NCBI GenBank assembly: GCA_019843655.1
Contig: JACDQD010000104.1
Coordinates: forward strand, 5,580,001-5,644,000
DNA length: 64,000 nucleotides
Origin: Lethocerus indicus
Lineage: Eukaryota; Arthropoda; Insecta; Hemiptera; Belostomatidae
Direction: 5' to 3'
Positions 305 to 53,933 of this stretch are shown piece by piece (positions within the stretch are counted from its first letter, which is position 1; every line of letters starts with the position of its first letter). Below the pieces are notes generated by a model. That model was not told where the DNA came from and ran no database searches. It was given only the letters and a program-made list of their open reading frames with translations. The translations under genes were made by a program, and so were the position numbers.

Positions 305-3003
305 TATTCTAAACTGATTGGAGGTAGTTGTGCAGGCTGCTTCCTTCCGTAAACCGGACCCTGGTTCCGAACACAGAATTTACCCCGTCGAACCCGGGAG
401 ATAACTACTAGAACGGAATATCGGAAGCCTGCCCTGTTGGTTGGACTTAGTTGTAGTTAACGTTCGAGAAAAGTTAATTATTGAACGTATTATCGTTCCC
501 CGGAATATTTTACATCGTAGACAGCACCAATCCGTACGTTATTAATTATCGAATAAATAAATAAATTGATCATTTTTCTCTTCACTTTAAAGACAACCTC
601 TAGAACGGTGGCGGTCGCCGCTAACTTCATTAACCTGTATTTATTCAAGACTTGGGTACACAAAACATAAATATTGTCATTCATATATTACAATTCATGT
701 ATTAAAATTTTATGTTTCGTAGTAAAACTGCGATTGTTCCTCCTCGGTTCGTAGTACGTGTTGTTCGTTACATTGATAACGGTTTATAATATGACTAAAC
801 GTGACATAAGAATAATTTCGCTTACCTTAGTCAGCGTCCCAGTATTTTCCAATAACAGATCAGCGTACTCAAAAATCGTGGAAATGTTTTTAATGACTTA
901 ATTCGACCCAAATCCGCCGTCTTAGATCGTGAATTGAGTTCACCTTCCGAAGGTGGATAATTTGAAAATATAAGTAGGTTCTTGATGTCATAAATTTCTT
1001 GTTATTTTTAATACGCGACCAATAAATATTGTCGTAATGGCACGAAGGAATCAATTGTTTTATTCAAATAGACTAGCAACGTAGTCTGCTTTGATAGCTA
1101 TGATTATCGATGTTTGGAGGGAAAATCTGAAATGAAAGTCCGATGTAATAAACATGTTTAATTAGAGCAGTTGTTTTTTGTTAAACATTCATAATAACAT
1201 AGTGGCAATATTTGATTTCGCAACAGAAAGCTCATTATTCATTATTTACAGAGTGTCTGATATGCAATGTTTACGATAACATCCCGTACAAAAAACTTCA
1301 GCTCGGAAATATTTATTTTTCGTTACGTTTTAAAACATATATATCATTTGTCTTACATTTAAATTAGATAACCATTTTTTTGTTGTCATTAAAACACATT
1401 ATATAAACACGTCGACTAACACTCAAATTTTCTTACAAACGGTTAACAAGTAGGTCGTTACTCCCAGTTTTAATAATTTTTGTATAGTTACTTTTCGCCT
1501 TACAAACTAATCCATAGGACTTTACTTTGTTTAATAGCGTTTGTTTTCCTTTTTATTTTTATAATCTAATCAACGTTATTGTCTGAGAACGTTGAGTCGT
1601 CAATATACAAAATATATCACAACGATCGGAGAATATTTCATTTGTTTAGAATCTACGAATGTTCTAATTTTTCTTTTTTTCGCCTCGAATAATTCGTCAT
1701 GAGTAGCGTCTTATTGAATGTTACAGAATGCATCGGTGACATTAGCGGAGTCATTATCATAAAGTTTGCCATGTTTATGTTACTAGACTTTATAAGAAAT
1801 AGGCAATTATATGAGGAACCCACAATAAGTATTCGAATAGGTCTATTCCGTAACAAAATTTATTTATGCCGCTAATAACCTTAACACCCCGATAGTACAG
1901 TTGCCAGAACTCTTAATACTGAGATAATTGTGGCCGTAATAATGACATTTTTATAATGAGAAAACCAAAAATTTCTGTCCGTTTACAATTCTTATAATGA
2001 TCGATGAAGAGATAGTCCAAAGCATATAAGGATTGAAGCATAAACCTTTATCGTAACCTGGGGGTTTTGGGAGACCTGGGGTTTGCGATATGATAAGTTA
2101 AAAAATAAATTTACAATTTGATATTGATGCGCAGAACAAGAAACGGTTTTGAACACCGTCCTTAAGCTGGGCTATCAGGTTGTTCAAAAATTATAAATAT
2201 AAGAAATATTTAAAAACGTTATTGTCTATATTTATTCGAGCGACGGACAGAACTTTTCAGTAGACTCGATACTAATCAGGTACTAAAACTAATCATTTCC
2301 TCGCGATTGTGTCGACAGGTACCAGTAGAGCGGATAACCAATACCTTCCAGTTGCATATGTTCTTTACACATTCAAATTAAGTTCAATTTATATTCATTC
2401 GTATTCTAAACTCGTCCCCGTCGCCCTTAGTGTCCCTCTTAGCTTTCTTCTGGTTTATAAACGTTGCACATGTCTTTTTTAATTGTACCACGTGGACTGA
2501 GTTGACGCCCGGTTATGTTTTAATTATCCATCCGATTAATCGCTCAATCCGAACTCTCACGATTACTATTATTATAAGAATTTTCGTCGACTAATGTCTC
2601 GATTACTAATCTTAATTTTAGCACCGTATTATTTTGCGACTGAATCGAATGGATCCATATTAGTGTAAGGTCAGTCGCTTCTGAAACCATTAGATTCCGC
2701 GTCAGAAAGTTCGGCCCCATATGATAGTTCATATTATAACGTAGTATCGAGTACAAACAAAACTGTTTGTAACGACAAAAATTCGGCCGATTAAACGGCA
2801 CCTTCCGTTCGATACTACCGGAATCCCGGGGGGCCGGCCTTACCCGAGTCCCGAGCGTAAACCACCGCCTGATAACAGTCGAACCGGATAACGCGATCCG
2901 CATAATAATAAAAGCGAGTGCGGCGTATAAGGGCCGATAGGGCCCGGTCGGCACGAGGAGTCCGCAGGAGCTAGACGATGTCCTCGTCCGAGTTGATCTC
3001 GTG
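305..3003. other. AT-rich non-coding stretch
   Basis: No splice-supported exon, RNA gene or clear repeat was seen. The short open frames lack codon bias. GC content rises from about 2780 towards the TARP terminal exon, so 2780-3003 may be its 3' UTR. Confidence 0.5.
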
Positions 3004-13416: not shown

Positions 13417-13431
13417 AATTAATAATTAAAC
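13417..13431 (+). repeat. Target-site duplication, left copy
   Basis: The 15-mer AATTAATAATTAAAC is identical to 30105-30119 and directly abuts both outer ends of the Penelope composite. It is AT-rich, so chance is not excluded, but its position at both edges argues for a duplication made on insertion. Confidence 0.7.
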
Positions 13432-13764
13432 TGTAGGTTCGTGATGTTTCTGTCTCCTCTCGATGGTTAGGTCTTTTGCTAGACCGGTTTCGGCTGCTCG
13501 CCATCTTCAGTAGCGGTGTTAGTCACTGTTAGCACTTTGGATGTTTTTTGGGCATCCTCACTGCACTGTCACTTACACATGTACTGTAATGTTTGTCAGT
13601 ATGTCAGTCGTTTATATATGTGTTCTGTTATTGTTATTGGGGGTTATCTTTGTCTTCGGATTTTGTTAATCCGTTTTCTAGTTATGAGTCAGATTGTCGG
13701 AAGGGGGTGGTGTGGTGGTAGGGTGGGTGTGATCCTTTAAGAGGATTATAGGTGTAAATATCGC
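13432..13764 (-). repeat. Inverted PLE 3' region (left arm)
   Basis: This is the reverse complement of 29733-30070, with about three substitutions in 330 bp. It lacks the last 34 bp of the family terminus present in the right arm. It ends abruptly at the shared GCGAT, where the 77-bp array begins. Confidence 0.9.
13478..13514 (-). ncRNA. Hammerhead ribozyme (left arm of composite)
   Basis: On the minus strand this is the same 37-nt core as the other copies: GCTA, CTGAAGA, T, GGC/GCC stem II, GAAA, CCGG, GTC, TAGC. All conserved core positions are intact, so transcription leftward out of the composite could self-cleave here. Confidence 0.8.
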
Positions 13765-16700
13765 CGGGCGGAGGATGTGAGCTGTCGACGGGCCAGCGGG
13801 GTCAGGGAGGATCCGGGCGGCACGGCGGGCAGGAGGCCGGGCGGAGGATGTCGTGAGGGAGGATTCCGGACGGGCTAGGAGGCCGGGCGGAGGATGTGAG
13901 TTGTCGACGGGCTGAAGGGGTCGTGAGGGGCGGCAGGCGGGCGGAGGATGGAGTGTCGACGGAGCCAGGGGGGGCCGGAGGAAGGGCAGGAGGCCAAGTG
14001 GGCGGGAGGCATGGGGGGTCGGGAGGAGGATCGGCACGGCGGGTAGGAGGCCGCGGAGGATGGGAGGGAGGTCACGGCGGCAGGAGGCCGGGCAGGAGGT
14101 CAGGAGGATGGAGATGACGGGGCCAAATGCGAGGGAGGGATGGTCTGACGGCCAGAAACCGGGGGTAGGAGGCCGGGCGGAGGATGATGACGACGCTGTG
14201 GGTCCCGGCACGGGCGGAGAGGCGGAGCGGGCGGATAGACGTGGAGACCAATGAGGGGAGGGTCGGGAGAGGATCTGTCATCGTGAGACGGGGCAGGAGG
14301 AGGCGGAAGGGGTCCATGCGGGGTCGTGGGAGGGATAAGGCTGGCCTGAAGGATGGAGGGAGGATCCAAGGTAGGCGGCATGAGCCACGCAGCCAACGGG
14401 CCGGCGGCACAATGGCGGGAGGGCCCATGGAGGAGGCTGGACGGCCATGTGAGCCTGACGCGAGGCCAGTTTGTGGATGCTGTGGAGCTGACAAGGGCCA
14501 GCGGGAGGGAGGCCGGGCGGAGGAGGATCTGGCGGCAGCGGTCGGGCTCAGGGAGGCCGGGGCGGAGGATGGAGTGTCGATCAACAGCGGGGGTCGAGGA
14601 GATCTGGCACGGCGGGTAGGAGGCCGGGCGGAGGATGAATGCTGTCGACGGGCCATTTGGGGGGGTCGGAGGGAGATCCGCACGGCGGGTAGGAGGCCGG
14701 CGGAGGATGTGAGTTGTCGACGGGAGACCATGCGGGGGCGGAGGGAGGATCTCAAGAGCACGGCGGGCAGGAGGCCGGCGGAGGATGATCTGGCCAGCGG
14801 GGGGGTCGGAGGGGAGGGAGGATCCGGGGAGCTGGGGGCCACGAGGGAGGATGGAGCTGGCGGGTGGAGGCGGGTTGAGGATGGAGCTGTCGACGGGCAT
14901 GGGGGTCGGGAGGAGGAGGACGGCGAGGAGGGCGGGGGTCACATAGGAGTGTCGACGGGCGAGATGACGGGTCGAGGAGGTCTGGGGCCCGGTAGGAGGA
15001 GGATGGAGCTGTCGACGGGGCTCGGAGGACTGTGGGAACGGCAATGGAGGTCGGCGGGAGGGCGGAGTGGAGTGATGTCGACGGGCCATGCGGCGAGGGA
15101 GGATCAAGTGGCGGCACGGCGGGCAGGAGGCCGGAGCGGCCATGGGGGGTGAGGGAGGATCTGAGGCGGGCAGGGGAGGGGGCGGAGGATGAGCTGTCGA
15201 CCGGCTGACGGCGGGCAGGGGGGTGGAGCGACGGGACGGTCGGAGGGATCTCAGGAGGAGGCCGGGCGGAGGACGGCATCCACGGGCGGCAGGGGTGGTA
15301 GGAGGAGTAGGAGGTCGGACGGCCAGTTGGGAGGATCGACGGAGGACGGGCCAGGAGGCCGAGCGCGTCTCATGGGCGGAGGGGAGGCCGGGCGGCCGGA
15401 GCTGGTCGACGGCCAGGGGGGGAGGATCGGGCGGCAGGGGTAGGAGGTCCAAGGCACGGCGGTAGGAGGCCGGGAGGATGGAGTGGTCGACGGGCCAAGC
15501 ACGGGGAGATCTCAAGGGGGGCAGGAGGCCGGGCGGAGGATGGTCAGGGGGGTCGGGAGGAGCCTGGGCGGCACGGCGGCAGGAGGCCGGGCGAGGATTC
15601 GACGGGCCAGGTGAGGGGGTCAGAGGCAGGGATGGCGGCACGTAGGAGGCCGGGCGGAGGATGGAGTTGGTCGACGGGCCAGGCGGGGGGTCGGTCCTAA
15701 GTGATCTACCAGGATGAGCGGTCGGACGGCCACAGGAAACGGCGGGCAGGAGGTCCGTTCCGGAGAGGAGTTGGACGGGCTAAGGCCGGGGATGGTTCCG
15801 AGAGGATGCGGGTGAGCCGGGGGTCGGGAGGCCGGAGGATCCGGAGTGATGGGCGGAGCTGAGGGGGGGGTCGAGCTAATGACGGAGGGAGGCTGGAGTA
15901 CCCCGTGTGAGAGGTGGGCGGAGGAGAGCGTCGGCCACGTGAGGAGGACACAACGGCGAGGAGGCCGGGACGGCGGGCAGGAGCCGTGAGGGAGAGGTAG
16001 GAGGTCAAGGATGGAGGCCGGGCGGAGGATGGCGATCGCCATAGCGGCCGGAGGGAGATCCGGCGCACGGCGGAGGGTAGGGCAGGATGGAGTTGTCGGG
16101 AGAAGACGTGAGTTAGGACGGGAGGATCCAGGGGGGTCCGGAAGGCACGGGCCATGGGGTGGGAGGCCGGCGCGGCGGCAGGAGGCCGGGAGGAGGATGG
16201 AGTTGTCGACGCTCGGGTCCAAGGCACGAGGAGCCCGGAGGAGGATCACGACCAGCAGGGGTCGGAGGGAGGTCAAGCGGCCATGGGGAGGCCGGGAGGA
16301 GGCCGGGATGGGAGTTCGACGGGCCAGGACGGCCAGGTGAGGGAGGATCGGGCGCGGCAGGCGGGCAGGAGGCCGGGCGGGAGGATGGAGTTGTGACGGG
16401 GAGTGGGGTGTGAGGGATCGGGCGGCACGGCGGCCGTAGGCCGGGAGGAGGGCAAATGACGGCCAGCGGGGGTCGGGAGAGGAGTCGGCACGGGGCCAAG
16501 GAGGGTCGGAGTTGAGGCCAGCGGGGTGTGGAGGGAGGTTCAAGCGGCACGGCGGGTGGGGGTGAGCTGTCGACGCCAAGGGGGGTGGAGGGAGGCTCAG
16601 GGGGTGGTAGGAGTCAAGCGGAGGATGGAGCTGTCGACGGCCACTGCGGCAGGCGGGTAGCCGGGGGAGGATGGAGCTGGTAGGGGTGGAGGGAGGATCT

Positions 16701-19700
16701 GATGGCGGGTAGGAGGCCAGGAGGGGGTCGGGAGGAGGATCCGGGCGGCACTGGAGCTGTCGACGGCCACAACGAGGAGGATCCGGGCGGCACGGCGGCA
16801 GGAGGGGCCGGGCGGAGGATGGAGCTGTCGACGGGCGGAGGAGGTGGTAGGAGGCCGGGCGGAGGATGCTGTCGACGGGCCAGCGGGGTCGCTGGCGGCA
16901 CGCGGGTAGGAGGTCGGGGGAGGATGAGCTGTCGACGGCCATGGGGGGTGAGGAGGTTCAAGCAACGGCGGGTAGGAGGCCGGGAGGAGGATGAGCTGTC
17001 GACGGCGGGGTCGAGGAGGTCTCGACGGCGGGTGAGGCCGGGCGGAGGATGGAGATGTCGACGGCCATGGGGTCGGAGGGAGATCCACGGCGGTAGGAGG
17101 CCGGGGGAGGATGAGCTGGTCGACGGCCATGGGGGTCGGAGGGAGGGTCGGCAGGGTAGGAGGCCGAGGGAGGATGGAGCTGTCGACGGCCAGCGGGGGT
17201 CGAGGAGGTTCCGCGGCACGGCGGGCAGGAGGCCGGGAGGATGAGCTTGTCGATTTCAGCCATAACGTGGAGGAGGATCCGCACGGCGGGCAGGAGGCCG
17301 GGCGGAGGATGGAGCTGTCGACGGCTAGCGGGGGTCGTGAGGGAGGTCTGGGCGGCACGGCGGCAGGAGGCCGGGCGGAGGATGGAGCTGTCGACGGGCC
17401 AGCGGGGTCGGAGGAAATCTGGCGGCACGGCGGGTAGGAGGCCGGGGAGGATGGAGCTGGTCGACGGCCATGGGGTCGTGAGGGAGGTCTGGCGGCACGG
17501 CGGGCAGGAGGCCGGGAGGATGGAGCTGTCGACGGCCATGGGGTCGGAGGGAGGATCCAAGGCACGGCGGTAGGAGGCCGGGCGGAGGATGGAGTTGTCG
17601 ACGGGCCAAGGGGGTCGAGGGAGGTTCTGGCGGCACGGCGGTAGGAGGCCGGGCGGAGGATGGAGTGGTCGACGGGCCAGGGGGGTGGAGGAGGTTCAAG
17701 CGGCAGGAGGTCAGGAGGATGTACGTCGACGATGCCAGTGGGGGTCGTAGGGGATTCCGGCAACGGCCAGGAACGGAGAGGACGGCTGCATCTGATCAAC
17801 GGGCAACGGGGAGGTCCTGGCGGCAACGGCGTGGAGGTCGGGCGGAGGACGGAGTGGTCGACGGGCCATGGGCCCGGTGAACCTGGCAACGGCGGGCAGG
17901 AGGCCGGGCGAGGATGGGTGTCGACTAACAGCGGGGGTCGTGAGGGAGGATCCGGCGGCACGGCGGGGCGGAGGATGGAGTGTCGACGGCCAAGGGGTGG
18001 AGGGAGGTCTGGCGGCACGGCGGCAGGAGGGGCGAGGATGTGAGCTGACGGGCCATGGGGGTCGTGAGGAGGTTCATGGCACGGCAGGAGGTCGGGTGGA
18101 GGATGGAGTGGTCGACGCCAGCGGGGGCCGAGGAGGTCTGGCGGCACGGGGGTAGGAGGCCAAGCGGAGGATGGAGGGTCGACGGCCAGTGGGGTCGGAG
18201 GAACTCAAGCGGCACGGGGGTAGGAGGCCAAGATATGGACTACGAAGGGCCGGAGGAGGATCCAAATGGAGAGCAGGAATAGAGGACGGAGTCATCGATC
18301 TACCATGGAGGATCCGCGGCACGGGCAGGAGGCCGGGAGATGTGAGCGATCACCACGGGAACGGAGGAGGATCCAGGCGGCACGGCGGGTGGAGGCCGGG
18401 CGGAGATGCGACGACAGCGGGGGGTCGGGAGGAGGATCCGGCGGCACGGCGGGCAGGAGGAAGGAGGATGAGCGTCGACGGGCCAGGCGGTGAGGGGAGG
18501 ATCTGGCGGCACGGCGGGCAGGAGGCCGGGCGGAGGATGGGAGTGGTCGACGGGCCAGGGGGTCGGAGGGAGGTCTCAAGGCACGGCGGCAGGAGGCCGA
18601 GGATGGAGTGTCGACGGGCCAGTGGGGGTGGAGGAGGTCTCCGGCAAGGGGTAGGAGGCCGGGCGGAGGATGTGGTCGACGGCCATGGGGGTCGGGAGGG
18701 AGGTTCAAGCGGCACGGCGGGTAGGAGGCCATGGAGGATGTGAGCTGTCGATGGGGGGCAATGGAGAGGATTCAAGGCAACGGCGGGCAGGAGGTCGAGG
18801 AGGATGTGAGCTGTCGACGGGCCAAGCGGGGTCGTGAGGGAGGTCTCGGCGGCACCATGGCAGAGGCCGGGCGGAGGGACGGATCGACGGGGTCAGGGCC
18901 AAACGGAGGAGGTCCTGGGCACGGCGGGCAGGAGGCCGAGGAGGACGGAGCCTGGTCGATCACCAGCGGGGTCGGAGGAGGTCCGGGCGGCAATGGAGGC
19001 CGGGAGGAGGACGAGCTGTCGACGGGCCAGCGGGGGTCGTGAGGGAGGTCCGGGCGGCACGGCGGGCAGGAGGCCGGGCGGAGGACGAGCTGTCGACGGG
19101 CCTGAAGGGGTCGAGGAGGATCTGGCGGCACCATGGCAGGAGGCCGGCGGAGGATGTGAGCTGTCGACGGCCAGGAGGAGATCCTGGCTGGGCGGCGGGC
19201 AGGAGGCCGGGCGGAGGATGAGCTGTCGACGGGCCAGGGGTGAGGAGGTCTGGGGGCACCATGGCAGGAGGCCGGAGGAGGATGAGCTGTCGACGGCCAT
19301 GGAGGGATGAGATCGGCCAACGGCAAGCAGGATCGGCGGAGGACGGTCGCATCGATCTACCAGTGGGGAATGGAGGGAGGGTCCGGGCGGCACCCATGGC
19401 AGGAGCGGGCGATGGACGGAGTCGACGGGCCAGCGGGGTCGGAGGAGGTCCGGGCACGGCGGGCAGGAGGCCGGGCGGAGGACGGGCTGTCGACGGGCCA
19501 GCGGGGTCGGGAGGAGGTCCGGGCACGGTGGCGGCAGGAGGCCGGGCGGAGGATGAGCTGTCGACGGGCCAAGGGGTCGAGGAGGTTCCGGCGGCACGGC
19601 GGCAGGAGGCCGGGCGGAGGACGGAGCTGTCGACGGGCCAGCGGGGGTCGGGAGGGAGGATCCGCGGCACGGCGGTAGGAGGCCGGGCGGAGGACGAGCT

Positions 19701-22700
19701 GTCGACGGCCAGCGGGGTCGTGGGAGGAGATCTGGGCGCACGGCGGGTAGGAGGCCGGGAGGAGTGGAGTTGTCGACGGGCCAGTGGGGGTCGGAGGGAG
19801 GTTCCAAGGCACGGTGGCAGGAGGCCGGGCGGAGGATGAGTGTCGACGGGCCAGCGGGGTCGAGGGAGGATCTGGCAAGGCAAGGGGGTAGGAGGTCGGC
19901 GGAGGACGGAGCTGTCGACGGGCCAAGGGGGTGATCGATCCACCAATCGGAGGCATGGATGGAGATGACCTCGATGATCCACTGGGCCAATGGAGGAGGT
20001 TCCGGGCGGCACGGCGGGCAGGAGGCCGGAGGAGGATGGATGGTCGACGGGCCAGCGGGGGTCGGAGGGAGTTCTGGCGGCACGGCGGTAGGAGGCCGGG
20101 CGGAGGATGGAGTGGTCGACGGCCAGCGGGGGTCGAGGGAGGTCCGGCGGCACGGCGGGTAGGAGGCCGGCGGAGGATGGAGTGTCGACGGGCCAGCGTC
20201 GGGAGGGAGGTCTGGCGGCACGGCGGTAGGAGGCCGGCGGAGGATGTGAGTTGTCGACGGGCTGAAGGGGTCGGAGGGAGGTCCGGGCGGCACGGCGGGT
20301 AGGAGGTCAAGGAGGATGGAGCTGTGACGGCCAAGGGGCCGTGAGGGAGGATCTGCGGCACGGCGGCAGGAGGCCGGGCGGAGGATGAGGTGTCGACGGC
20401 CAGTGGGGTCGTGAGAGGAGGTCCCGGCGGCACGGTGAGGAGGCCGGGCGGAGGACGGCGGTCGACGGGCCAGCGGGGGTCGGAGGAGGTCCCGGGCAAC
20501 GGCGGGCAGGAGGCCGGGCGGAGGATGGAGTGGTCGACGGGCCAGCGGGGTCGAGAGGTCTGCGGCGGCAAGGGGGTAGGAGGTCGGGCGGAGGATGAGC
20601 TGTCGACGGGCCAAGGGGGTCGAGGGAGGTTCCGGCGGCACGGCGGTAGGAGGCCGGAGGGAGGATGGAGTTGTCGACGGGCCAGCAATGGAGGGAGGTC
20701 CGGGCGGCACGGCGGGTAGGAGGCCGGGCGGGATGGGAGTTGTCGACGGGCTAGCAGGGTGGGAGGGAGTGATCTGGCGGCGGCAGGAGGCCGGGCGAGG
20801 ATGTGAGCTGTCGACGGGCCAGCGGGGTCGTGAGGGAGGTCTCAAGGCACGGCGGGTAGGAGGCCGGGCGGAGGACGGTCGACGGGCCAGCGGGGGTCAG
20901 GAGGTTCAAGGCACGGCGGCAGGAGGTCGGGAGGATGGAGTGGTCGACGGCCAGCGGGGGTCGGAGGAGGTTCAAGGCACGGCGGCAGGAGGTCGGGAGG
21001 ATGGAGTGGTCGACGGCCAGCGGGGGTCGGAGGAGGTTCCGGCACGGCGGCAGGGAGGCCGGCGGAGGACGGGGTATTCGAGGGAACGGAGGAGGATCCG
21101 GCTAACGGCGGCAGGAGGTCGGGCGGAGGACGAGCTGGTCGACGCAACAGGGGTCGGAGAGGGTCCGGGCGGCACGGCGGGCAGGAGGCCGGAGGAGGAT
21201 GAGCTGTCGACGGGCCAGCGGGGGTCGTGAGGGAGGTTCTGGCGGCACGGCGGTAGGAGGTCGGGCGGAGGATGTGAGCTGTCGACGGCTCAGCGGGGTC
21301 GTGAGGAGGGATCTGGGCGGCACGGCGGGTAGGAGGCCGAGGAGGATGTGAGCTGTCGACGGCCAGCGGGGTGTGGGGAGGATCTGGCGGCACGGCGGGG
21401 AGGCCGGGAGGAGGATGGAGTGTCGACGGGCCAGGGGGTCGTGGAGGAGGTTCGGGGGCACGGCGGCAGGAGGCCGGGCGGAGGATGTGAGTTGTCGACG
21501 GGCCAGCGGGGGTCGTGAGGGAGGTTCATGGCACGGCGGGTAGGAGGCCGGGCGGAGGATGTGATTGCCACGGGAATGAGGGTGATCCGGGCGGCACCCA
21601 TGGCAGGAGGGCGGAGGGACGAGCTGTCGACCATGGGGGGTCGGAGGAGGTCCGGGCGGCACGGCGGCAGGAGGCCGGGAGGAGGACGTGAGCTGTCGAC
21701 GGCCAGGGGGGTCGGGAGGGAGGTCTGGGCGGCACGGCGGCAGGAGGCCGGGCGGGGAGGATGTGTGGTCGACGGGCCAGGGGTTGAGGAGGTCTGGGCG
21801 GCACGGGGGCAGGAGGCCGGGGAGGATGGAGTGGTCGACCGGCCAGCGGGGGTCGGAGGAGGTTCAAGCGGCACGCGGGCAGGAGGTCAAGGAGGGATGT
21901 ATGTGGTCGAGGCTGAAGGGGGTCGTGAGGAGTGTTCAAGGCAATGGGTAGGAGGTCAAGGAGGATGGGAGTTGTCGACGGCTGAAGGGGGGGTCGGAGG
22001 AGGATCTGGGCGGCAACGGCGGGTAGGAGGCCGGGAGGGGAGATGGAGTTGTCGACGGCCATGGGGTCGGTGGAGGATCTCAAGCACGGCATGGTAGGAG
22101 GCAAGTGGAGGACGTGAGCGTCGACGGGCCATGGGGGTCGGAGGGAGGTCTCGGCACGCGGGTAGGAGGTCGGCGGAGGACGGAGCTGTCGACGGCCAGC
22201 GGGGCCCGTGAGGGAGGATCCGGCACGGCGGGCAGGAGGCCGGGCGGAGGATCGGAGCTGTCGACGGCCAGCGGGGTCGTGAGGAGGTCCGGGCGGCACG
22301 GCGGGCAGGAGGCCGGGCGGAGGATGGAGTTGTCGACGGGCTGAAGGGGTCGTGGAGGGAGGTCTGGCGGCACGGCGGTAGGAGGTCGGGAGGAGGATGG
22401 AGCGTCGACGGGCCAGCGGGGTCGAGGGAGGTTCTGGCACGGCGGGTAGGAGGCCGGGCGGAGGATGTGGCGTGGTCGACGGGCCAGGGGGTCGGTAGGA
22501 GGTTCCGGGCGGCACGGCGGGCAGGAGGCCAAGTGGAGGATGGCGGTCGACGGGCCAGGGGTGGTAGGGAGGTTCCGGCGGCACGGCGTAGGAGGCCGGG
22601 CGGAGGATGGGCGGTCGACGGGCCAGCGGGGGTCGTGAGGAGATCTGGCGGCACGGCGGGTAGGAGGCCGGGCGAGGATGAGCGGTCGACGGCCAAGGGG

Positions 22701-22975
22701 GTCGGTAGGGATCCTGGCGGCACGGCGGCAGGAGGCCGGGCGGAGGATGGAGTTGTCGACGGCCATGGGGGTCGTGAGGGAGGTTCCGGGCGGCACGGCG
22801 GGTAGGAGGCCGGGCGGAGGATGTGAGTTGTCGACGGGCTAGCGGGGGTCGTGAGGGAGGTTCCGGGCGGCACGGCGGGTAGGAGGCCGGGCGGAGGATG
22901 TGAGTGGTTGATGGGCTAGCGGGGTTCGTGGGCGATGTTACGGGCGACACGGCGAGTTAGTGTGTCGGGGGGTGG
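13765..22975 (+). repeat. 77-bp satellite array, G-rich on plus strand (about 9.2 kb)
   Basis: Head-to-tail monomers share GGAGGCCGGGCGGAGGATG, a GTCGACGGGC block (palindromic GTCGAC in almost every unit) and a GGCGGCACGGCGG block. Clean monomers at 22800-22880 are exactly 77 bp. Many others are shortened by small deletions. The right edge (after about 22890) decays into diverged units. The left edge is cut within a unit by the PLE arm. There are roughly 115-120 units. The complementary strand is open for hundreds of codons in all frames only because it is C-rich. 77 is not a multiple of three, so coding is unlikely. G-runs could form quadruplexes. Confidence 0.93.
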
Positions 22976-22984
22976 AAAAAAAAC

Positions 22985-23016
22985 TTGACGGGAGACGGCT
23001 TATCGCCGTCCGTCAA
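22985..23016 (+). other. GC-rich hairpin at the array/spacer boundary
   Basis: TTGACG pairs with CGTCAA and GACGGC with GCCGTC around a TTATC loop, with a GGA bulge on the left side. It lies just after the decayed end of the 77-bp array and an A-run. The function is unknown. Confidence 0.6.
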
Positions 23017-23145
23017 AGTCTGGTTTATTCTTACCGTGAAGGGCCCGTCGACCCCGGTCCTGCGTGTCTAAACCTATCTTAAGAGGGAGTTAGTAAAAAT
23101 GCGAAACAGAGCTGGTTATGATACTGTGTGGTGTGGGACTGAATG

Positions 23146-23520
23146 CTGCTAGGTCCCGGCACCGATTACAGTACAGTGTGCCCAGACATGGTGGAAGGAT
23201 TATTGAGACAGTTTTGTTTTGATTCAATTAATACATAGTGGTACGGTCGTTCTTACGAACGAGAGACTATATTTATAGCCTAACAATAGGCGATTCCGGT
23301 ATCCAATGCTACCGGTAACACAATATTCTTCTTAGAGGGCCAGGCGGCTTTTACCGCTTTTAAACTGAGCAAGAACAGGTCTGTGATGAATTTAGATGTT
23401 CAGGGTTGCACCCGAACTATACCGAAGAGAATTCAGACTGTTTCCCCTTGGTCCAAGAGGCCGGGAAACTCCGCTGAACCTTCGTGTTAACATTGCATAT
23501 CGCAATTGTTCTCATGAACC
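23146..23520 (+). pseudogene. Degenerate 18S rRNA segment (3' domain)
   Basis: Blocks in the order of eukaryotic 18S rRNA are present: GTCGTTCTTA and CGAACGAGA near 23246-23265, CTTCTTAGAGGG at 23328, CAGGCGGCTTTTA, AACAGGTCTGTGATG, TTAGATGTTC, GCTGAACCTTCGTG, CGCAATTGTTCTCATGAAC. Known 18S genes carry these in the same order with similar spacing. Many substitutions and indels lie between the blocks, so it is not a functional rRNA gene. Similarity fades before about 23146 and after 23520. It sits between the two satellites within the composite. Confidence 0.75.
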
Positions 23521-23599
23521 CCCTCGGCGACCGTACGAGGTTTCCGGGTTGCGGCGGAGGGGAGGGATTTATCCTTAATTATCTAGATTTGTTATTTGA
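23521..23599. other. Spacer before the 173-bp array
   Basis: A short GC-rich then AT-rich linker with no recognised content. Confidence 0.4.
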
Positions 23600-26500
23600 G
23601 CGCGCGCCCGATGTGTTCAGGGCCCTGCCTCCCGGAGGACAGACTTGAGTCGGCCTGACCGACCACCGTGTTCCCTCGGGTGGTGTGTAGTGAGCGTCCG
23701 TCGTCCGTCCACGGTGGGATGACCAGTCGTATACCTTTTACGAGAGGCGTCCAGGCGTCCAGCGCGCGGCAGACTTGTTGAGTCGGCCTGACCGACACCT
23801 CGTGTTTCCCTCTCGAGTGTGTAGTGAGCGTCCCGTCGTCCGTCCCATCGTGTCCGTCCCACGGTGCCCGGGATGACCAGTATACCTTTACGTTCGGCCG
23901 GCCGGGGAGGGAACAGACTTGCTGAGCCCTGACCACTGCTCTCCGAGAGGAACGGTGCCCAGGAGACTCGTATACCACGAGGCGTCCAGCGCGCGGCCTT
24001 TAATGTGTGGCCGGGAGCCCCGCCTCCGGGAGGAACAGACTTGTTGAGTCGGCCTGACCACCTCGTGTTTCCTCTCGGAGTGTGGTGAGCGTCCCGTCGT
24101 CCGTCCCACGGTGCCCAGGATGACCAGTCGTATACCTTTACGAGAGGCGTCCAGCGCGCGGCCCGATGTGTTCGGCTGGAGCCCCGCCTCCGGAGCAGAC
24201 TTGTTGAGTCGGCCTGACCGACCACTCGTGTTTCCCTCTCGGAGTAGTGAGCGTCCCGTCGTCCGTCCCACGGTGCCCAGGATGACCAGTCGTATACTTT
24301 TACGAGAGGCGTCCAGCGCGCGGCCCAATGTGTGGATCCGTTGTTGAGTCGGCCTGACCGACCACTCGTGTTTCCTCGGAGTGTGTAGTGAGCGTCCCGT
24401 CGTCCGTCCCAGGTGTGACCAGTCGTATACCTTTTACGAGAGGCGTTGTGTTCGTCGGCCTGACCGACCACTCGAGTGTGTAGTGAGCGTCCCGACCAGG
24501 ATGACCAGTCGTATACCTTTACGAGAGGCGTCCAGCGCGCGGCCCAATGTGTTCGGCCGGGAGCCCCGCCGGAGAACAGACAGTCGGCCTGACCGTCGTG
24601 TTTCCTCTCGGAGTGTGTAGTGAGCGTCCGTCGTCCGTCCCACGGTGCCCAGGATGACCAGTCGTGAGAGGCGTCCAGCGCGCGGCCCAGTGTTCGGCCG
24701 GGCCCCGCCCGGGAGTCGGCCTGACCGACCACTCGTGTTTCCCTCTCGGAGTGTGTAGTGAGCGTCCCGTCGTCCGTCCCACGGTGCCCAGGATGACCAG
24801 TCGTATACCTTTTACGAGGAGGCGTCCAGCGCGCGGCCCAATGTGTTCGGCCGGGGCCCCGCCTCCGGGAGAACAGACTTGTTGAGTCGGCCTGACCGAC
24901 CACTCGTGTTTCTCTCTCGGAGTGTGTAGCGTCCGTCGTCCGTCCCACGGTGCCCAGGATGACCAGTCGTATACCTTTTACGAGAGGCGTCCAGCGCGCG
25001 GCCCAATGTGTTCGGCCGGGAGCCCGCCTTCGGGAGGAACAGACTTGTTGAGTCCCAGACCGACCACTCGTGTTTCTCTCTCGGGTGTGTGTGAGCGTCC
25101 CGTCGTCCGTCCCACGGTGCCCGGGATGACCAGTCGTATACCTTTTACGAGAGGCGTCCAGCGCGCGGCCCAATGTGTTCGGCCGGGAGCCCCGCCTCCG
25201 GGAGGGAACAGACTTGTTGAGTCGGCCTGACCGACCACTCGTGTTTCCTCTCGGAGTGTGTAGTGAGCGTCCCGTCGTCCGTCCCACGGTGCCCGGATGA
25301 CCAGTCGTATACCTTTTACGAGAGGCGTCCAGCGCGCGGCCCGATGTGTTCGGCCGGGAGCCCCGCCTCCGGGAGGGAACAGACTTGTTGAGTCGGCCAG
25401 ACCGACCACTCGTGTTTCCCTCTCGGAGTGTGTAGTGAGCGTCCCGTCGTCCGTCCCACGGTGCCCAGGATGACCAGTCGTATACCTTTTACGAGAGGCG
25501 TCCAGCGCGCGGCCCAATGTGTTCGGCCGGGAGCCCGCCTCCGGGAGGGAACAGACTTGTGAGTCGGCCAGACCACTCGTGTTTCCCTCTCGGACGTCCC
25601 GTCGGATGACCACTCCCGTCTCGTGTTTCCCTCTCGGAGTGTGTAGTGAGCGTCCCGTCGTCCGTCCCACGGTGCCCAGGATGACCAGTCGTATACCTTT
25701 TACGAGAGGCGTCCAGCGCGCGGCCCGATGTGTTCGGCCGGGAGCCCCGCCTCCGGGAGGGAACAGACTTGTTGAGTCGGCCTGACCGACCACTCGTGTT
25801 TCCCTCTCGGAGTGTGTAGTGAGCGTCCCGTCGTCCGTCCCACGGTGCCCAGGATGACCAGTCGTATACCTTTTACGAGAGGCGTCCAGCGCGCGGCCCG
25901 ATGTGTTCGGCCGGGAGCCCCGCCTCCGGGAGGGAACAGACTTGTTGAGTCGGCCTGACCGACCACTCGTGTTTCCCTCTCGGAGTGTGTAGTGAGCGTC
26001 CCGTCGTCCGTCCCACGGTGCCCAGGATGACCAGTCGTATACCTTTTACGAGAGGCGTCCAGCGCGCGGCCCGATGTGTTCGGCCGGGAGCCCGCCTCCG
26101 GGAGGAACAGACTTGTTGAGTCGGCCAGACCGACCACTCGTGTTTCCCTCTCGGAGTGTGTAGTGAGCGTCCCGTCGTCCGTCCCACGGTGCCCAGGATG
26201 ACCAGTCGTATACCTTTTACGAGAGGCGTCCAGCGCGCGGCCCGATGTGTTCGGCCGGGAGCCCCGCCTCCGGGAGGGAACAGACTTGTTGAGTCGGCCA
26301 GACCGACCACTCGTGTTTCCCTCTCGGAGTGTGTAGTGAGCGTCCCGTCGTCCGTCCCACGGTGCCCAGGATGACCAGTCGTATACCTTTTACGAGAGGC
26401 GTCCAGCGCGCGGCCCGATGTGTTCGGCCGGGAGCCCGCCTCCGGGAGGAACAGACTTGTTGAGTCGGCCTGACCGACCACTCGTGTTTCCCTCTCGGAG

Positions 26501-27987
26501 TGTGTAGTGAGCGTCCCGTCGTCCGTCCCACGGTGCCCAGGATGACCAGTCGTATACCTTTTACGAGAGGCGTCCAGCGCGCGGCCCGATGTGTTCGGCC
26601 GGGAGCCCCGCCTCCGGGAGGGAACAGACTTGTTGAGTCGGCCAGACCGACCACTCGTGTTTCCCTCTCGGAGTGTGTAGTGAGCGTCCCGTCGTCCGTC
26701 CCACGGTGCCCAGGATGACCAGTCGTATACCTTTTACGAGAGGCGTCCAGCGCGCGGCCCAATGTGTTCGGCCGGGAGCCCTGCCTCCGGGAGAGAACAG
26801 ACTTGTTGAGTCGGCCAGACCGACCACTCGTGTTTCCCTCTCGGAGTGTGTAGTGAGCGTCCCGTCGTCCGTCCCACGGTGCCCAGGATGACCAGTCGTA
26901 TACCTTTTACGAGAGGCGTCCAGCGCGCGGCCCAATGTGTTCGGCCGGGAGCCCTGCCTCCGGGAGAGAACAGACTTGTTGAGTCGGCCTGACCGACCAC
27001 TACTCGTGTTTCCCTCTCGGAGTGTGTAGTGAGCGTCCCGTCGTCCGTCCCACGGTGCCCAGGATGACCAGTCGTATACCTTTTACGAGAGGCGTCCAGC
27101 GCGCGGCCCGATGTGTTCGGCCGGGAGCCCCGCCTCCGGGAGGGAACAGACTTGTTGAGTCGGCCAGACCGACCACTCGTGTTTCCCTCTCGGAGTGTGT
27201 AGTGAGCGTCCCGTCGTCCGTCCCACGGTGCCCAGGATGACCAGTCGTATACCTTTTACGAGAGGCGTCCAGCGCGCGGCCCGATGTGTTCGGCCGAGCC
27301 CTGCCTCCGGGAGGAACAGACTTGTTGAGTCGGCCAGACCGACCACTCGTGTTTCTCTCGGGTGTGTAGTGAGCGTCCGTCGTCCGTCCCACGGTGCCCA
27401 GGATGACCAGTCGTATACCTTTTACGAGAGGCGTCCAGCGCGCGGCCCAATGTGTTCGGCCGGGAGCCCCGCCTCCGGGAGGGAACAGACTTGTTGAGTC
27501 GGCCTGACCGACCACTCGTGTTTCCCTCTCGGAGTGTGTAGTGAGCGTCCGTCGTCCGTCCCACGGTGCCCAGGATGACCAGTCGTATACCTTTACGAGA
27601 GGCGTCCAGCGCGGCCCGAATGTGTTCGGCCAGCGCCTCCGGGAGGAACAGACTTGTTGAGTCGGCCAGACCGACCACTCGTGTTTCCCTCTCGGAGTGT
27701 GTAGTGAGCGTCCCGTCGTCCGTCCCACGGTGCCCAGGATGACCAGTCGTATACCTTTTACGAGAGGCGTCCAGCGCGCGGCCCAATGTGTTCGGCCGGG
27801 AGCCCCGCCTCCGGGAGAGAACAGACTTGTTGAGTCGGCCTGACCGACCACTCGTGTTTCCCTCTCGGAGTGTGTAGTGAGCGTCCCGTCGTCCGTCCCA
27901 CGGTGCCCAGGATGACCAGTCGTATACCTTTTACGAGAGGCGTCCAGCGCGCGGCCCAATGTGTTCGGCCGGGAGCCCCGCCCGGGA
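23600..27987 (+). repeat. 173-bp satellite array (about 4.4 kb, about 25 units)
   Basis: Monomers contain CTCGTGTTTCCCTCTCGGAG, GTCCCGTCGTCCGTCCCACG, AGTCGTATACCTTTTACGAG, GGCGTCCAGCGCGCGGCCC and GAACAGACTTGTTGAGTCGG. The spacing between equivalent points is 172-173 bp over 25.8-27.3 kb, where units are nearly identical. The left part (23.6-25.3 kb) has many small deletions. Long minus-strand frames cross it only because stops are rare in this GC-rich, CpG-rich sequence. The period is not a multiple of three. It is not related to the 77-bp unit by eye. Confidence 0.93.
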
Positions 27988-28064
27988 TTCGTAGTTTGAA
28001 AGGTATACGTAATTGTGTGTTTCACTGCGTCTGTAAGGTTTCTGTTTGTTCTGTGTGTGGGTCT
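27988..28064. other. Spacer between the 173-bp array and the inverted 77-bp array
   Basis: A GT-rich 77-bp stretch with no recognised content. It differs from the 18S-like spacer on the other side. Confidence 0.4.
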
Positions 28065-28523
28065 GGACAACTCACATCCTCCTCCCGGCCTCCTACCCGC
28101 CGTGCCGCCCGGAACCTCCCTCACGACCCCCGCTAGCCCGTCGACAACTCACATCCTCCTCCCGGCCTCCTACCCGCCGTGCCGCCCGGAACCTCCCTCA
28201 CGACCCCCGCTAGCCCGTCGACAACTCACATCCTCCTCCCGGCCTCCTACCCGCCGTGCCGCCCGGAACCTCCCTCACGACCCCCGCTATCCAATCGACA
28301 ACTCACATCCTCTCTCCGGCCACCAACTCGCCGGTCCATCCGGAACCTCCCCCACGACCCCCGCTATCCAATCGACAACTCACATCCTCCCTCTTGCCAC
28401 TTACCCGCCTTGCCGCCCGGAACATCCCCTACGACCCCCGCTATCCAATCGACAACTCACATCCTCCCTCCGGCCACCAACTCGCCGGTTCATCCGGAAC
28501 TTCCCCCACGACCCCCGCTATCC
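28065..28523 (-). repeat. 77-bp satellite, inverted short array (about 6 units)
   Basis: This is the reverse complement of the 13765-22975 monomer. The first units (28070-28290) match the clean consensus, including GTCGAC. The later ones, nearer the PLE, read ATCGAC and carry other substitutions. Divergence therefore increases toward the TATA box, as at the ends of satellites homogenised by unequal exchange. It forms the inner part of the composite's inverted repeat. Confidence 0.9.
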
Positions 28524-28527
28524 GTGG

Positions 28528-28539
28528 CTATATAAAAAT
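28528..28539 (+). promoter_or_regulatory. TATA box upstream of the PLE
   Basis: CTATATAAAAAT occurs directly after the last 77-bp unit and about 110 bp before the RT remnant. Its place suggests that the array plus TATA form the element's 5' promoter region. No initiator was assigned. Confidence 0.4.
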
Positions 28540-28648
28540 AGCCAAACACATCGCGAAAATAATAAAGAAAAAATCACTCTCAACAACAATTACACACAAA
28601 AAACACATTAGAACTAATAAACTCCATAAACACAACTAAAACAACTAG

Positions 28649-29706
28649 AAAAACGAATTAATATCATTGGACATAAAAAACTTATACACGTCTATACCAA
28701 TCAAAGAAACGATTAAACTCTTAAAATCACAACTGACAAAGAATAACACAATAGAATTCACAAACGAACTCATAAAACTCACAACCCTAAACCTTAATCA
28801 AAACTACTTCCAATTCAACGGGAAATATTACCAGGGTAAATAACGGACTCGGAATGGGCAACCCCACATCCGCCATCCTATCCGTACTCTTCCTCCAAGA
28901 CCTAGAAGACAGACACATTGAAACACTTAAAAAGAAATACAACATCAGCCACTATATCAGATACGTAGACGACACACTACTAATCACAGACCACCACAAC
29001 CCCGACGAAATACTAAACGACTTCAACCTGCAATACACAACGAATAATCCGTTACCATATCACATTTGACATTTTAGGAAAGATACCACCACAGACACTC
29101 ATCCACCAACAATCCAAACCCATAGCGGCACTAAAATACCTAACAGACAGACTAAACAAATACCCTTATCCAGCGAGAAAAGAACATAAAACAATCCTCC
29201 AAGTCGCAATAACAACGAATATCCCGCCAATACACAAAACTATTAAAGAAGAAAGAGAAGCCCACAACGAACCTCACAAACCCAGAAGAACCCCCCAAAA
29301 ATGGGCCACATTCACTTACACTGGCCACGAAACCTACAAAATCACGAACATCTTTAAAAAACTAAAATTCAAAATATCATACAGAACAACCAATAAATTA
29401 GAAAAACACATCAGCACACAACAACAAAATAAACACAAACAAAGCGGGATATACAAGATAACATGCGGATCATGCGATGGAGTTTACATCGGCCAAACCG
29501 GACGAAAAATTGAAGACAGATACAAGGAACATATAAAAGCCATAAAATACAAAACAGATTCCAATTTCGCCAACCATATCATAAACACCGGGCACGAAAC
29601 AATGAACATCAAAAGATCTTTAAAATTATTACACGCAGGTAAAAAAGGAAAAGCATTAAACATTATAGAAACTAAAGATCTTCAAACAAGAAAAACAACA
29701 TTATAA
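28649..29706 (+). pseudogene. Penelope-like RT plus GIY-YIG endonuclease, truncated and frameshifted
   Basis: Reading three frames in turn gives RT motif A (SLDIKNLYTSIP, from 28664), the GLGMGNPTSAIL block, the catalytic YVDD (IRYVDDTLLI), a linker with WATFTYTGHETYKIT, and a GIY-YIG nuclease (SGIYKITCGSC from 29443, then VYIGQTGRKIEDRYKEH), ending at a TAA at 29704. RT followed by GIY-YIG is diagnostic for canonical Penelope-like elements, which use the nuclease to nick the target. The finger region before motif A is missing, and at least two frameshifts and a TGA at 29067 break it. It cannot supply a full RT, so mobilisation would need another copy. Confidence 0.9.
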
Positions 29707-29732
29707 ATGAGAAAATTAATTCCTAGTGTGAC

Positions 29733-30104
29733 GCGATATTTACACCTATAATCCTCTTAAAGGATCACACCCACCCTACCACCACACCACCCCCTTCCGA
29801 CAATCTGACTCATAACTAGAAAACGGATTAACAAAATCCGAAGACAAAGATAACCCCCAATAACAATAACAGAACACATATACAAACGACTGACATACTG
29901 ACAAACATTACAGTACATGTGTAAGTGACAGTGCAGTGAGGATGCCCAAAAAACATCCAAAGTGCTAACAGTGACTAACACCGCTACTGAAGATGGCGAG
30001 CAGCCGAAACCGGTCTAGCAAAAGATCTAACCAGCGAGAGGAGACAGAAACATAACGAACCTACAGTATTCCAACCCCTCGCAGACCACAAAACAGGTAT
30101 ATCA
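29733..30104 (+). repeat. PLE 3' region (right arm), ends ACAAAACAGGT
   Basis: It follows the endonuclease stop and contains the hammerhead. It ends with CCACAAAACAGGTATATCA right before the target-site duplication. The first 330 bp are repeated inverted at 13432-13764. Its last 170 bp recur in the short family members elsewhere in the window. Confidence 0.9.
29983..30019 (+). ncRNA. Hammerhead ribozyme (right arm of composite)
   Basis: It is intact in all conserved boxes (CTGAAGA, GAAA, cleavage GTC), with GCTA/TAGC stem I and GGC/GCC stem II. It matches the left-arm copy in opposite orientation, so the two could also pair in a long transcript. Confidence 0.82.
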
Positions 30105-30119
30105 AATTAATAATTAAAC
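30105..30119 (+). repeat. Target-site duplication, right copy
   Basis: Identical to 13417-13431 and directly adjacent to the PLE terminus. Confidence 0.7.
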
Positions 30120-30933: not shown

Positions 30934-32063
30934 ACTTGCGAAACAAGGACTACACAACTACTTTGAAAACAAGGATTACGCAATTGTATTATAACGGTTT
31001 GGCATTCCTTAAACTAAATAAAATATCGCGTTGCAGTCATTAATTTATTCATCTTTATGTTTATTTCATTTCTATTTATTCTGTACTTTTTTCTAGTAAC
31101 AAATCGAATTTCGGCTGAGTTACAGAGTACAGTTATTATCACGAAAACAACTACATGTCGGCCAACAGCGATAATTTTCGGTCGTTCAAAACCAGGACGG
31201 GTTGATTTTATTTTAATGAAGGCCTTGTTAGCTTTAGGCCTCCTATACAGTATCTTTGTATCCAATTTGCCAGTACAATACGTGTGTGTGTCACACATAA
31301 TCAAAAGCGATTTGTTTTCAGCTTAAAGTGAATGAAAGCGTTTATATTACAAACGTAAATCACCGCCCTCCTAGCGTTGATTCAGAAATTAGTAAAGCAT
31401 TTTTTCGGTAGGAATATAATATTTCGCCAGTAGGAGTAATTATATAATATATATAAATGTTGAGGACGGGAGGAAATTCTGACGATAAATAAAAGTCCGG
31501 GATTGTTCCTGGAACGATTTGTCAAGTCCAGGCTCTAAATTATGGGCATAAATCAAGGCCGCAGGCTGCCGACTGGACCACTATCTCACTCCGGAACCAA
31601 CCCCAGCCTCCCCACCACGCTACCAATCTCAAATCTTACCTTCACTTCAACGAAACCCTACCTACCCTCAAATCACACCCGAACGTGAGACTTCATGATT
31701 ATCAACCGTCTGAAGCGTCGTGGCCAATCGTGGTCTTGTACTAATGTAAAGGGGGCTTTTAAAAGAATTAAATCACGGGTTGCCATATTTGCAAAGTGAT
31801 CTACTTATTTGGCCCAAATAACCTGAAGTGGGGAATATAAGCGATGCTATAAGAACATTAGATATACAGTCTAGTAAAGGTAATTTACTACAGGATTTAA
31901 ATTTATTGAAGTGTTTTGATAAGTCCGGCAGTTTTCGCCTTCACCCTGGATGTAATCTTCAAATTCGAATTAGAGCTTGAAATATTTTTCCGATCGGTGT
32001 TTGGAAGGGGTATCTTAATAACTCAAAGCAAGGACAAGGTCCCCACTCCGAGGTTAGCCAACG
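30120..32063. other. Non-coding stretch with a (TA)n run
   Basis: No gene was recognised. It holds an about 57-bp TA microsatellite at 30874-30930. Confidence 0.4.
30874..30930. repeat. (TA)n microsatellite
   Basis: An uninterrupted TA run of 57 bp. Confidence 0.97.
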
Positions 32064-32071
32064 CATAAATA
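32064..32071 (+). promoter_or_regulatory. Possible TATA box of EcKL gene 1
   Basis: CATAAATA lies 36-43 bp before the start codon at 32107. If it is the TATA box, the 5' UTR would be very short. A weak match judged by position only. Confidence 0.25.
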
Positions 32072-32106
32072 GCTCGAAATCCGGCGGGTTCGTTCTCTGT
32101 TTAGCG

Positions 32107-33746
32107 ATGGACGGTCTAATAGGCGAGAAAGATTGCTTGAGAGTACTGGAGGCCCTCTACGGGGACCTGGAGGGTCTCGAGATCCTCGAGTACAGCTTGA
32201 AACCGCTGACAGAAGTCGTCGGCTTTCATTCGGACCACGCCAAGTTGAGAATGTCCATCGGCACCGCCGACGGCGAGAGGAGGCAGCTGGAGTTCTTCGT
32301 GAAAGTGGCGGCCCTCGACGGTCCCGTCTACAAGCACTATTTGAGCAAGATCGGCTGCTTCTTCAAGGAGCACGTGATGGTGACGCGGGTGCTGAAGGAC
32401 GTGCGCGAGCTGAGCGGGCTGAAGCTGACCGCCGAGTGCTACTTCGCCCGGCTCGAGAGGTTCATAGTGCTGGAGGACCTGAGGCCCAGCGGCTACTCGG
32501 TTGAGGCTCGGCTGGGGCTGGAGCACGCGCAAGTGGCACTGGACGCGTTCGCTGCCCTACACGCCGGGACGGCGCTGCTAGAGAGGGCCGGCATAGACCC
32601 GGCACAGCACTATAGGGACATCATGTTCGAGACACTCTTCTCCTTGCCCGATACCGGAGACGAGTGCCTAGCCGGTTCCATACACAAAGGGCTTAAGGTC
32701 TTCTTCAGAAAACATTTCCCTCAGGTATTATATCGATTCGTCGAAAAATTTCCGTTTCTCTAATAGTTTAACAACCTAGAATCTAAAACGTTGTTTGCAT
32801 CTACGAATTATTAGTACTCAGGTGACCCAGTTCCATGAGATTACCATTCAATTTAACCTATCTTTAGGGATATATAGTTCAATCAGCCAAGTCTGCCGAT
32901 CTAGGTTTCTGCACGAATTCTTTCCATCATCGTTCACAGTATATACAGGACGACAGTGAGACGAAACTAATATTTCTGGGCCATATTAGTTTTCTTGAGT
33001 ATAATTTTGTGGTTTAGGAATATTTTTTTAGACCTCATTTCTAAACTAGCTTATAAGGGAATGAAAAGGCAGATCGCAGGAGTCTCAGAACTCCCGAGTT
33101 GAATAAGTCTAATGTTTAATCGTTTTTCTCCAAGGTGAAAGACTCACTGCGTGACTATTTGAAGACTACAATCGTGGAATGCTGCAGGCCCTCGAGAAGG
33201 TTCAAGAATGTGCTAGTCCACGGCGACCCCTGGGGGAACAACATACTGTACAGGCGGGACAAGAGCGGAAGGCCGGAGAAGGCGATGCTGGTCGACTTCC
33301 AAGCGGCGCGCTACGTGCCGCCGGCGGCCGAGCTCTCCCAGTTCCTCTACCTGGCACTGCCCAGGAAGCTGCGCCTCTCCGAGAGCCGCCACCTCCAGGA
33401 CTACTACTACCGCGCCCTGAAGGCCGCCCTCGCCGACCAATCGATAGACGAGGAGTTCATACCGCGGGCCGAATTCAACGACGCCTGCCGGTTCTACGAG
33501 AAGTTCGGTATCTGCACCAAGGTCTACTACCTGTACATTACGGGCCTGCCAGCCGAGTACCTGAGGCGGGCCTGCAGGACGCCCGAAGACTTCCTCGGGC
33601 TCATGATACGCGGCAACCACGAACAGCCGATGGCCGCCTTCGAGGCCGACGAGGACTACAGGAAGGAGTTCATCAACGCGGTCAACGACGCGGCCCGACT
33701 CTACGACAGGGAACTCAATCTCAGACAGATTAAACATTACAATTAA
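32107..33746 (+). CDS. Ecdysteroid kinase-like (EcKL/CHK) protein 1, two exons
   Basis: Exon 1 is 32107-32724 (206 codons, ending CAG before GTATTA). Exon 2 is 33135-33746 after the acceptor CCAAG. The phase-0 junction gives a 409-aa protein, the usual EcKL length. Kinase-like landmarks are the nucleotide-binding Lys in EFFVK (about residue 66), VLEDLRPSGY (hinge, about 121-130), the catalytic loop HGDPWGNN (235-242) and VDFQ (259-262), in which DFG is replaced by DFQ as is usual in this family. EcKLs phosphorylate small molecules such as ecdysteroids and, by proposal, xenobiotics, in the cytosol. The actual substrate cannot be told. All key residues are present, so it is probably functional. 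The exons are GC-rich with GC-ending codons. The gene lies antisense inside the TARP intron. Confidence 0.93.
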
Positions 33747-53724: not shown

Positions 53725-53933
53725 CAATCGTTCAATACCTATCTAGCCCCACAGAACGAACGATTAGCGCGCTGACAGTCGTTTGGCTAAAATACCGTTA
53801 AATCCGAAATGAGAATGATTCGCCTACAGTATCCATACACGAGCGAAAGTTATACCCTGGAATCCCTTTATAGGTGGGGACTTGAGTTCAAAACCGTACT
53901 GAGCTAACTAAAAAGTCCGTTAAAGTTCAACAT

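Follow-up and report, generated by a model that had tools for sequence, protein, structure and literature searches.

A 64,000-nt stretch of the Lethocerus indicus genome, referred to here as the window, contains a 16.7-kb block (13417..30119) in which two arms derived from a Penelope-like element (PLE) enclose two satellite arrays, called A77 and B173, and a spacer with an 18S rRNA-derived segment. The block is very probably one copy of a recurrent unit that was inserted whole. It is likely, with somewhat less confidence, that the unit was both inserted whole and moved by a PLE route, as a non-autonomous giant PLE composite mobilized in trans. The genome contains a recurrent cargo order, a common A77|PLE junction, three composites with perfect direct repeats, and arms that end at two PLE end positions. 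All window coordinates are positions in the 64,000-nt stretch, and C-numbers and L-numbers denote contigs and loci, respectively. The window corresponds to the minus strand of C8:5435360-5499359 in an assembly of 427 Mb and 209 contigs; this contig is 28.7 Mb long, and the window begins about 5.4 Mb along it. The block is composed of the following parts.

13417..13431, + strand: left copy of the target-site duplication, 15 bp (exact match)
13432..13764, - strand: left arm, PLE 3' region with the pseudo-long terminal repeat (pLTR), inverse, without the 37-bp tail (98.8% complementary to 29733-30067, 335 nt from 13430)
13476..13516, - strand: minimal hammerhead-like motif of the left arm (motif scan)
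13765..22957, + strand: A77, heterogeneous GC-rich tandem array of ~63-77-bp units, about 9.2 kb (Tandem Repeats Finder, map)
22958..23620, + strand: spacer of 663 bp, recurrent in the element family, containing an 18S-derived segment (genome matches)
23180..23519, + strand: 18S-rRNA-derived segment, best part 23285-23469 (Rfam RF01960 below gathering score; BLAST)
~23621..27978, + strand: B173, array of a 173-bp satellite (Tandem Repeats Finder, map)
27979..28065, + strand: linker between B173 and A77', 87 bp, present in L026 too
28066..28523, - strand: A77', array of six 77-bp units in the opposite orientation to A77 (Tandem Repeats Finder, inverted-repeat match)
28524..30104, + strand: right arm, 5'-truncated PLE with the later part of the reverse transcriptase (RT), a GIY-YIG endonuclease (EN), the 3' pLTR, and the tail (genome matches)
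28959..28973, + strand: RT catalytic motif RYVDD (direct reading)
29017..29706, + strand: 229-aa open frame with a GIY...YIG endonuclease motif (open reading frame; homologue match)
29733..30067, + strand: pLTR part common to both arms (complementarity with the left arm)
29981..30021, + strand: minimal hammerhead-like motif of the right arm (motif scan)
30068..30104, + strand: 37-bp tail, right arm only (arm comparison)
30105..30119, + strand: right copy of the target-site duplication, 15 bp, first 5 nt ambiguous with PLE sequence (exact match)

The original prediction described this order as mirror-like, with a PLE 3' end and a 77-bp array, an 18S-like spacer, a 173-bp array, and a 77-bp array followed by PLE, and each of these parts was located in the window. 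The package recurs in the genome. A query with the right arm (28524-30104) gave at least 63 genome matches, and the best 40 of 2,666 candidates were scored. Thirty PLE loci were cut out, and removal of seven repeats on C123, C144, and C99 and one overlap left 22 distinct loci, including that of the window. A77 or B173 is present within 1.5 kb upstream in 20 of the 22; neither is found in the 1.5 kb upstream of L035 and L037. The A77|PLE junction lies at the identical nucleotide in 14 of the 22 loci, among which L017 and L019 represent one duplicated insertion, and L020 and L022 are the arms of one composite. The possibility that L017 and L019 are separate insertions was rejected because their outer flanks match. 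These two loci (C4:24594552 and C4:24632492) are 38 kb apart and 99% alike over 2.5 kb, and represent a segmental duplication or a retained haplotype.

In the fuller PLE copies L015 and L018, position 28524 falls within the RT frame. The right arm is therefore a PLE whose 5' part is cut off at a recurring point, where it joins the satellite. The PLE junction at 28523/28528 to which the original prediction pointed does recur at other loci, but 28524 is a truncation point in the RT frame and not the start of a PLE. The idea that a TATA-box-bearing PLE leader lies at 28524 was rejected, since the fuller copies show RT coding sequence there.

The spacer gave at least 43 genome matches, with the best 40 of 48 candidates scored. 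Seventeen spacer places were read together with 250 bp of either flank. The left flank contains A77 in 14 of the 17, and the right flank contains B173 in all 17 (in one by only 27 bp). Given this recurrent order and the shared junction, the satellites belong to a repeated element. Proximity was assessed by comparing 26 distinct spacer places (the window included; duplicates and 18S-only places left out) with 30 distinct PLE places that had been scored, excluding C40 and C177. Ten of the 26 are within 12 kb of a scored PLE; when places were put at random in 2,000 trials, the mean was 0.07 and the highest count 2, with the lengths of C9 and C11 assumed. For B173, at least 359 matches were obtained, with the best 22 of 69 candidate places scored. 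Among the matches listed there are 20 clusters, counted on non-duplicate contigs, and for 14 of them a spacer or PLE that was scored lies no more than 12 kb away. Hence, B173 looks like a moderate and mostly element-linked satellite.

Five composites were read at both ends. Perfect direct repeats of 13-15 bp are present in three of them, an imperfect one in the fourth, and none in the fifth. The window composite has the 15-bp repeat. The composite at C8:14283474-14302184 consists of PLE (minus strand, with tail), A77 (plus), spacer pieces, B173 (plus), and PLE (plus, no tail), and is bounded by the 13-bp repeat AAATAAAGATTCG. The right-arm PLE of this copy, L044, is 74% alike to L018 in the N-terminal part and 96% in the 3' part, as if it were recombinant. 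The composite at C8:10874708-10891153 consists of pLTR (minus, no tail), A77 (plus), B173 (plus), a direct pLTR, and PLE (plus, with tail), and is bounded by the 13-bp repeat GTGGGATAATTAA; no spacer was detected in it, and a 133-bp gap separates A77 from B173. C1:12096041-12102967 has mirror A77 and PLE arms, with the tail on the left only. In C1:16936935-16946329, the core is inverted between two A77 arrays, and the left arm carries the tail. The tail is found on exactly one arm in all four composites whose arms are both unbroken. A compact mirror PLE without satellites, L035 (C4:20528859-20531091), has inverted copies 38 bp apart and also a tail on one arm. It is possibly a cargo-free counterpart of the composite.

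The direct repeat of the window, AATTAATAATTAAAC, abuts both outer ends on the plus strand (13417-13431 and 30105-30119), with no third copy in the window. This 15-mer occurs 44 times in the whole assembly (21 + 23, duplicate contigs included), and the reversed-letter control occurs 27 + 29 times. The 15-mer by itself is therefore not rare, and its placement exactly at the element ends is what counts. The right repeat begins with AATTA, and these 5 nt also follow the tail in other PLE copies, several of which read ATATCA|AATTA; the direct pLTR of fuller PLE copies continues through CAAATTAG. Since AATTA is possibly PLE-derived, the target duplication in the window is 10-15 bp, and not firmly 15. 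The perfect match at the ends claimed in the original prediction is thus confirmed, but the length of the duplication has to be relaxed. The single-copy target expected at an unoccupied site is AATTAATAATTAAAC or ATAATTAAAC. As a control, 272 mismatched flank pairs were compared in a uniformly trimmed frame; a match of 10 bp was reached once, and one of 11 bp never. In the same frame, the true pairs gave 15 bp for the window, 11 bp for both C8:14283474 and C8:10874708 (13 untrimmed), and 7 bp for C1:12096041. The whole unit has a target-site duplication with an AT-rich target.

These results bear on whether the block is a unit at all. Two unrelated PLE insertions in opposite orientation could have bracketed a satellite/rDNA block that was already old, and the match of 15 bp could be due to chance. 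PLE fragments are common, with four further short ones in the window, and the 15-mer is found 44 times in the assembly. Against this, two other loci have the matching order, direct repeats of their own, and flanks unlike those of the window, the A77|PLE junction is common to many loci, and mismatched flanks never reach 11 bp. This explanation is extremely improbable. An assembly artefact caused by collapsed or mis-joined repeats is only slightly less improbable. Duplicate contigs do exist, the pair C4:24594552/24632492 has common outer flanks, and array lengths may be wrong; but the order recurs with different flanks and different direct repeats. The second copy of the block on contig C123 has no difference over the 30 kb around it. 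It is therefore an assembly duplicate and offers no independent support, and C123 was rejected as a second allele for the same reason. The insertion of the block as one unit, as originally predicted, is supported by the two further composites with the matching order and their own 13-bp repeats, and by the junction shared by 14 of the 22 loci.

The outer arms (13430-13764 and 29733-30067) form an inverted repeat of 335 nt that is 98.8% complementary. The arms have the features of EN-containing PLEs, namely a PLE-type RT followed by GIY-YIG, pLTRs in direct and inverted orientation, and an optional tail. A direct pLTR is found upstream of the open reading frame in L015, L018, and L027. The 229-aa frame matched one homologue carrying PF01541 (E 1e-21, 38% identity), which we take to be the GIY-YIG family. 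A Pfam search of the window frame 29017..29706 gave no match at 1e-3. In the fuller copy L018, RVT_1 was matched at E 7e-4, below its cut-off. The RT of the window is cut at 28524, and the frames are broken in all four copies translated, that of the window included. The unit is therefore PLE-derived but non-autonomous. A core-like motif in both arms, possibly that of a hammerhead ribozyme, folds with two stems; Rfam detected no hammerhead at the gathering score in the window, nor any in 29900-30119. Four more short PLE 3' fragments (parts of the pLTR and tail) lie in the window at 144-315 (+), 42207-42403 (+), 53924-54115 (-), and 58300-58420 (-). They have no adjoining satellites, and two of them contain hammerhead-like motifs, at 188 and 54051.

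How the unit is copied, through a long RNA or through DNA, can be addressed by inference. In the PLE route, two PLE-derived arms with their 3' ends outward enclose A77, usually the 18S-derived spacer, and B173, and the whole would have entered an AT-rich site in a single event that duplicated 10-15 bp of the target. A PLE RT-EN protein supplied in trans would cut both strands. Reverse transcription would begin at internal start sites in the pLTR, primed at both target nicks. Since an inverted pLTR lies at each end, both ends would present the identical start signal; the RNA would carry one of the two, and either another RNA or the cDNA of the first strand would carry the other. Everything between the two start signals would be carried along, whatever its content. 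Afterwards, the arrays may drift in length and homogenize locally in some copies. As a tentative extension, rather doubtful at present, this PLE lineage may practice two-ended, cargo-blind mobilization, in which one protein copies a 7-19-kb package, here a recurrent core with an 18S relic between two satellites, so that the element would be a vehicle seeding satellite arrays across chromosome arms.

The main rival to the PLE route is spread of the same composite as DNA, through an extrachromosomal circle, break-repair capture, or foldback-type transposition, with the PLE arms acting merely as terminal repeats. The long terminal inverted repeats and flexible arms would suit such a process, as would the GC-rich arrays of up to about 10 kb, which are difficult to reverse-transcribe. 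There is also a precedent in Tetris of Drosophila virilis, a foldback DNA element with internal tandem repeats (PMC4079207). On the other hand, the direct repeats are variable in length (13, 13, and 10-15 bp) and mostly AT-rich, as for PLEs, and the arms end at two PLE end positions. No transposase turned up in six window frames, one of them in the block, although no transposase-directed search was made. We consider DNA-based spread unlikely, although clearly less so than chance bracketing or an artefact.

Several observations weigh against a giant PLE composite inserted whole. Nothing shows a 16-kb RNA, and all the fuller PLE copies read (L015, L018, and L027) have broken frames. The PLE loci, as the best 40 of 2,666 candidates, are a biased sample, and the 17 loci that gave the spacer order were selected for having the spacer. 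For six of the 20 listed B173 clusters, which are left unexplained, neither a spacer nor a PLE was scored in the surrounding 12 kb. The spacer is inconstant; it was not detected in two of the five composites, C8:10874708 and C1:12096041, nor in the read stretches of C8:7560399 and C8:19191318. The distance from A77 to B173 is about 100-130 bp in C8:10874708 and in those two stretches. In C1:12096041-12102967, neither spacer nor B173 was seen, and the repeat is imperfect, with a longest match of 9 bp, or 7 bp trimmed, which is inside the control range. C1:16936935-16946329 has no direct repeat, and its right arm is broken. Right arms differ between copies, being either A77' with truncated PLE or a fuller PLE after B173. 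A pattern search for the other end of the C8:7560399 copy gave 10 genome matches (reversed control, 2), none of which is on C8. At C6:14682000, B173 is present, but a clean left arm was not found.

The 18S-like segment matched Rfam RF01960 with E 5e-7 and 32.4 bits, under the gathering score of 50, and no Rfam match at the gathering score was found in the window. A BLAST alignment with one of the genome's own 18S copies has 152 of 186 columns (82%) identical. The 18S-like segment is real but weak. Six or seven other places have spacer positions 328-512 in common. Four of these lie no farther than 0.17 Mb from the start of C1, and the one C1 place that was read is 18S sequence. An 18S copy near the start of C1 (L066, C1:28800-30800) appears truncated, and more matches to the 18S-like part of the spacer are found at C1:112305, C1:136325, and C1:161826. 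B173 was compared using 157 units, all of which matched the greater part of a consensus derived from the window. Within-array similarity is 0.971 in the window and 0.985 in C8:7560399, and similarity between loci is 0.857-0.943; four other arrays have within-array values of 0.898-0.945, with little or no excess. This suggests local homogenization of B173 in some copies. The original prediction held that the element moves or amplifies satellite DNA. As judged from the recurrence of the package, movement is well supported, but amplification is only suggested, by the within-array similarity of B173.

Outside the block, two genes of the ecdysteroid-kinase-like (EcKL) family adjoin it in pieces at 31981-33746 (+) and 41033-43081 (-), as identified by Pfam. 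Genes of this kind point to an arthropod host, probably an insect. A tandem pair of a 354-bp unit, 96% alike, lies at 45217-45930 (Tandem Repeats Finder).

How satellites come to occupy other positions on chromosomes is a long-standing question. Since the satellites and an rRNA piece here appear to be the recurrent cargo of a retroelement that leaves target duplications, the vehicle is directly testable. There are precedents for cargo capture by PLEs, for PLEs of giant size, and for satellites within mobile elements. Two satellites and an 18S relic as the recurrent cargo of a dispersed PLE composite were not seen to be reported among the matches listed, and a search of open-licence literature (titles and abstract openings) found no satellite-carrying PLE of this kind among those matches.

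A close parallel is seen in the rotifer Adineta vaga. Penelopes of A. vaga contain unrelated DNA between pLTRs (a nonribosomal peptide synthetase (NRPS) gene; Pen1 spacers), the NRPS case has a target-site duplication and an allelic empty site, and the 5' inverted pLTR of Pen2a is 37 bp shorter than the full pLTR (PMC3846280). The authors concluded that PLE enzymes act in trans (PMC3846280). The composite is thus alike in having non-PLE DNA between PLE terminal repeats, a target-site duplication, and one pLTR 37 bp shorter. In A. vaga, either a gene of the host or a short spacer from it is carried, whereas the cargo here comprises an 18S relic together with two satellite arrays and reaches about 15 kb. 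Furthermore, the composite forms a dispersed multi-copy family known from filled sites, in contrast to the A. vaga case with its empty site.

A biochemical precedent is offered by PAc, the protein of a Poseidon element from Anolis. In vitro, PAc cleaves and extends both strands, and two internal RT start sites delimit an optional tail of 30-40 bp (PMC11167929). PAc belongs to a canonical RT-EN element with no satellite cargo in the passages cited (PMC11167929), whereas the present composite carries satellites. Among other Penelope families that have been reported, two contain short internal repeats, and the cited passages describe no comparable composite (PMC3124438).

Terminons are giant PLE-derived elements of rotifer telomeres, described as having telomeric repeats at the truncated 5' end (PMC6431247). 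Both they and the present element are giant PLE-derived composites. Unlike Terminons as described, the composite retains part of a GIY-YIG EN and lies at an internal, AT-rich target that was duplicated, and its ends abut a direct repeat of ordinary sequence instead of telomeric repeats. Tetris (PMC4079207) shares with the composite the form of an inverted-repeat mobile element with internal tandem repeats as satellite-like arrays, but it is a DNA transposon, whereas the composite has PLE arms and PLE-type ends. If the PLE reading is true, cargo capture by PLEs, so far seen at single loci of rotifers, would extend to a family dispersed through an arthropod genome, whose copies reach about 19 kb.

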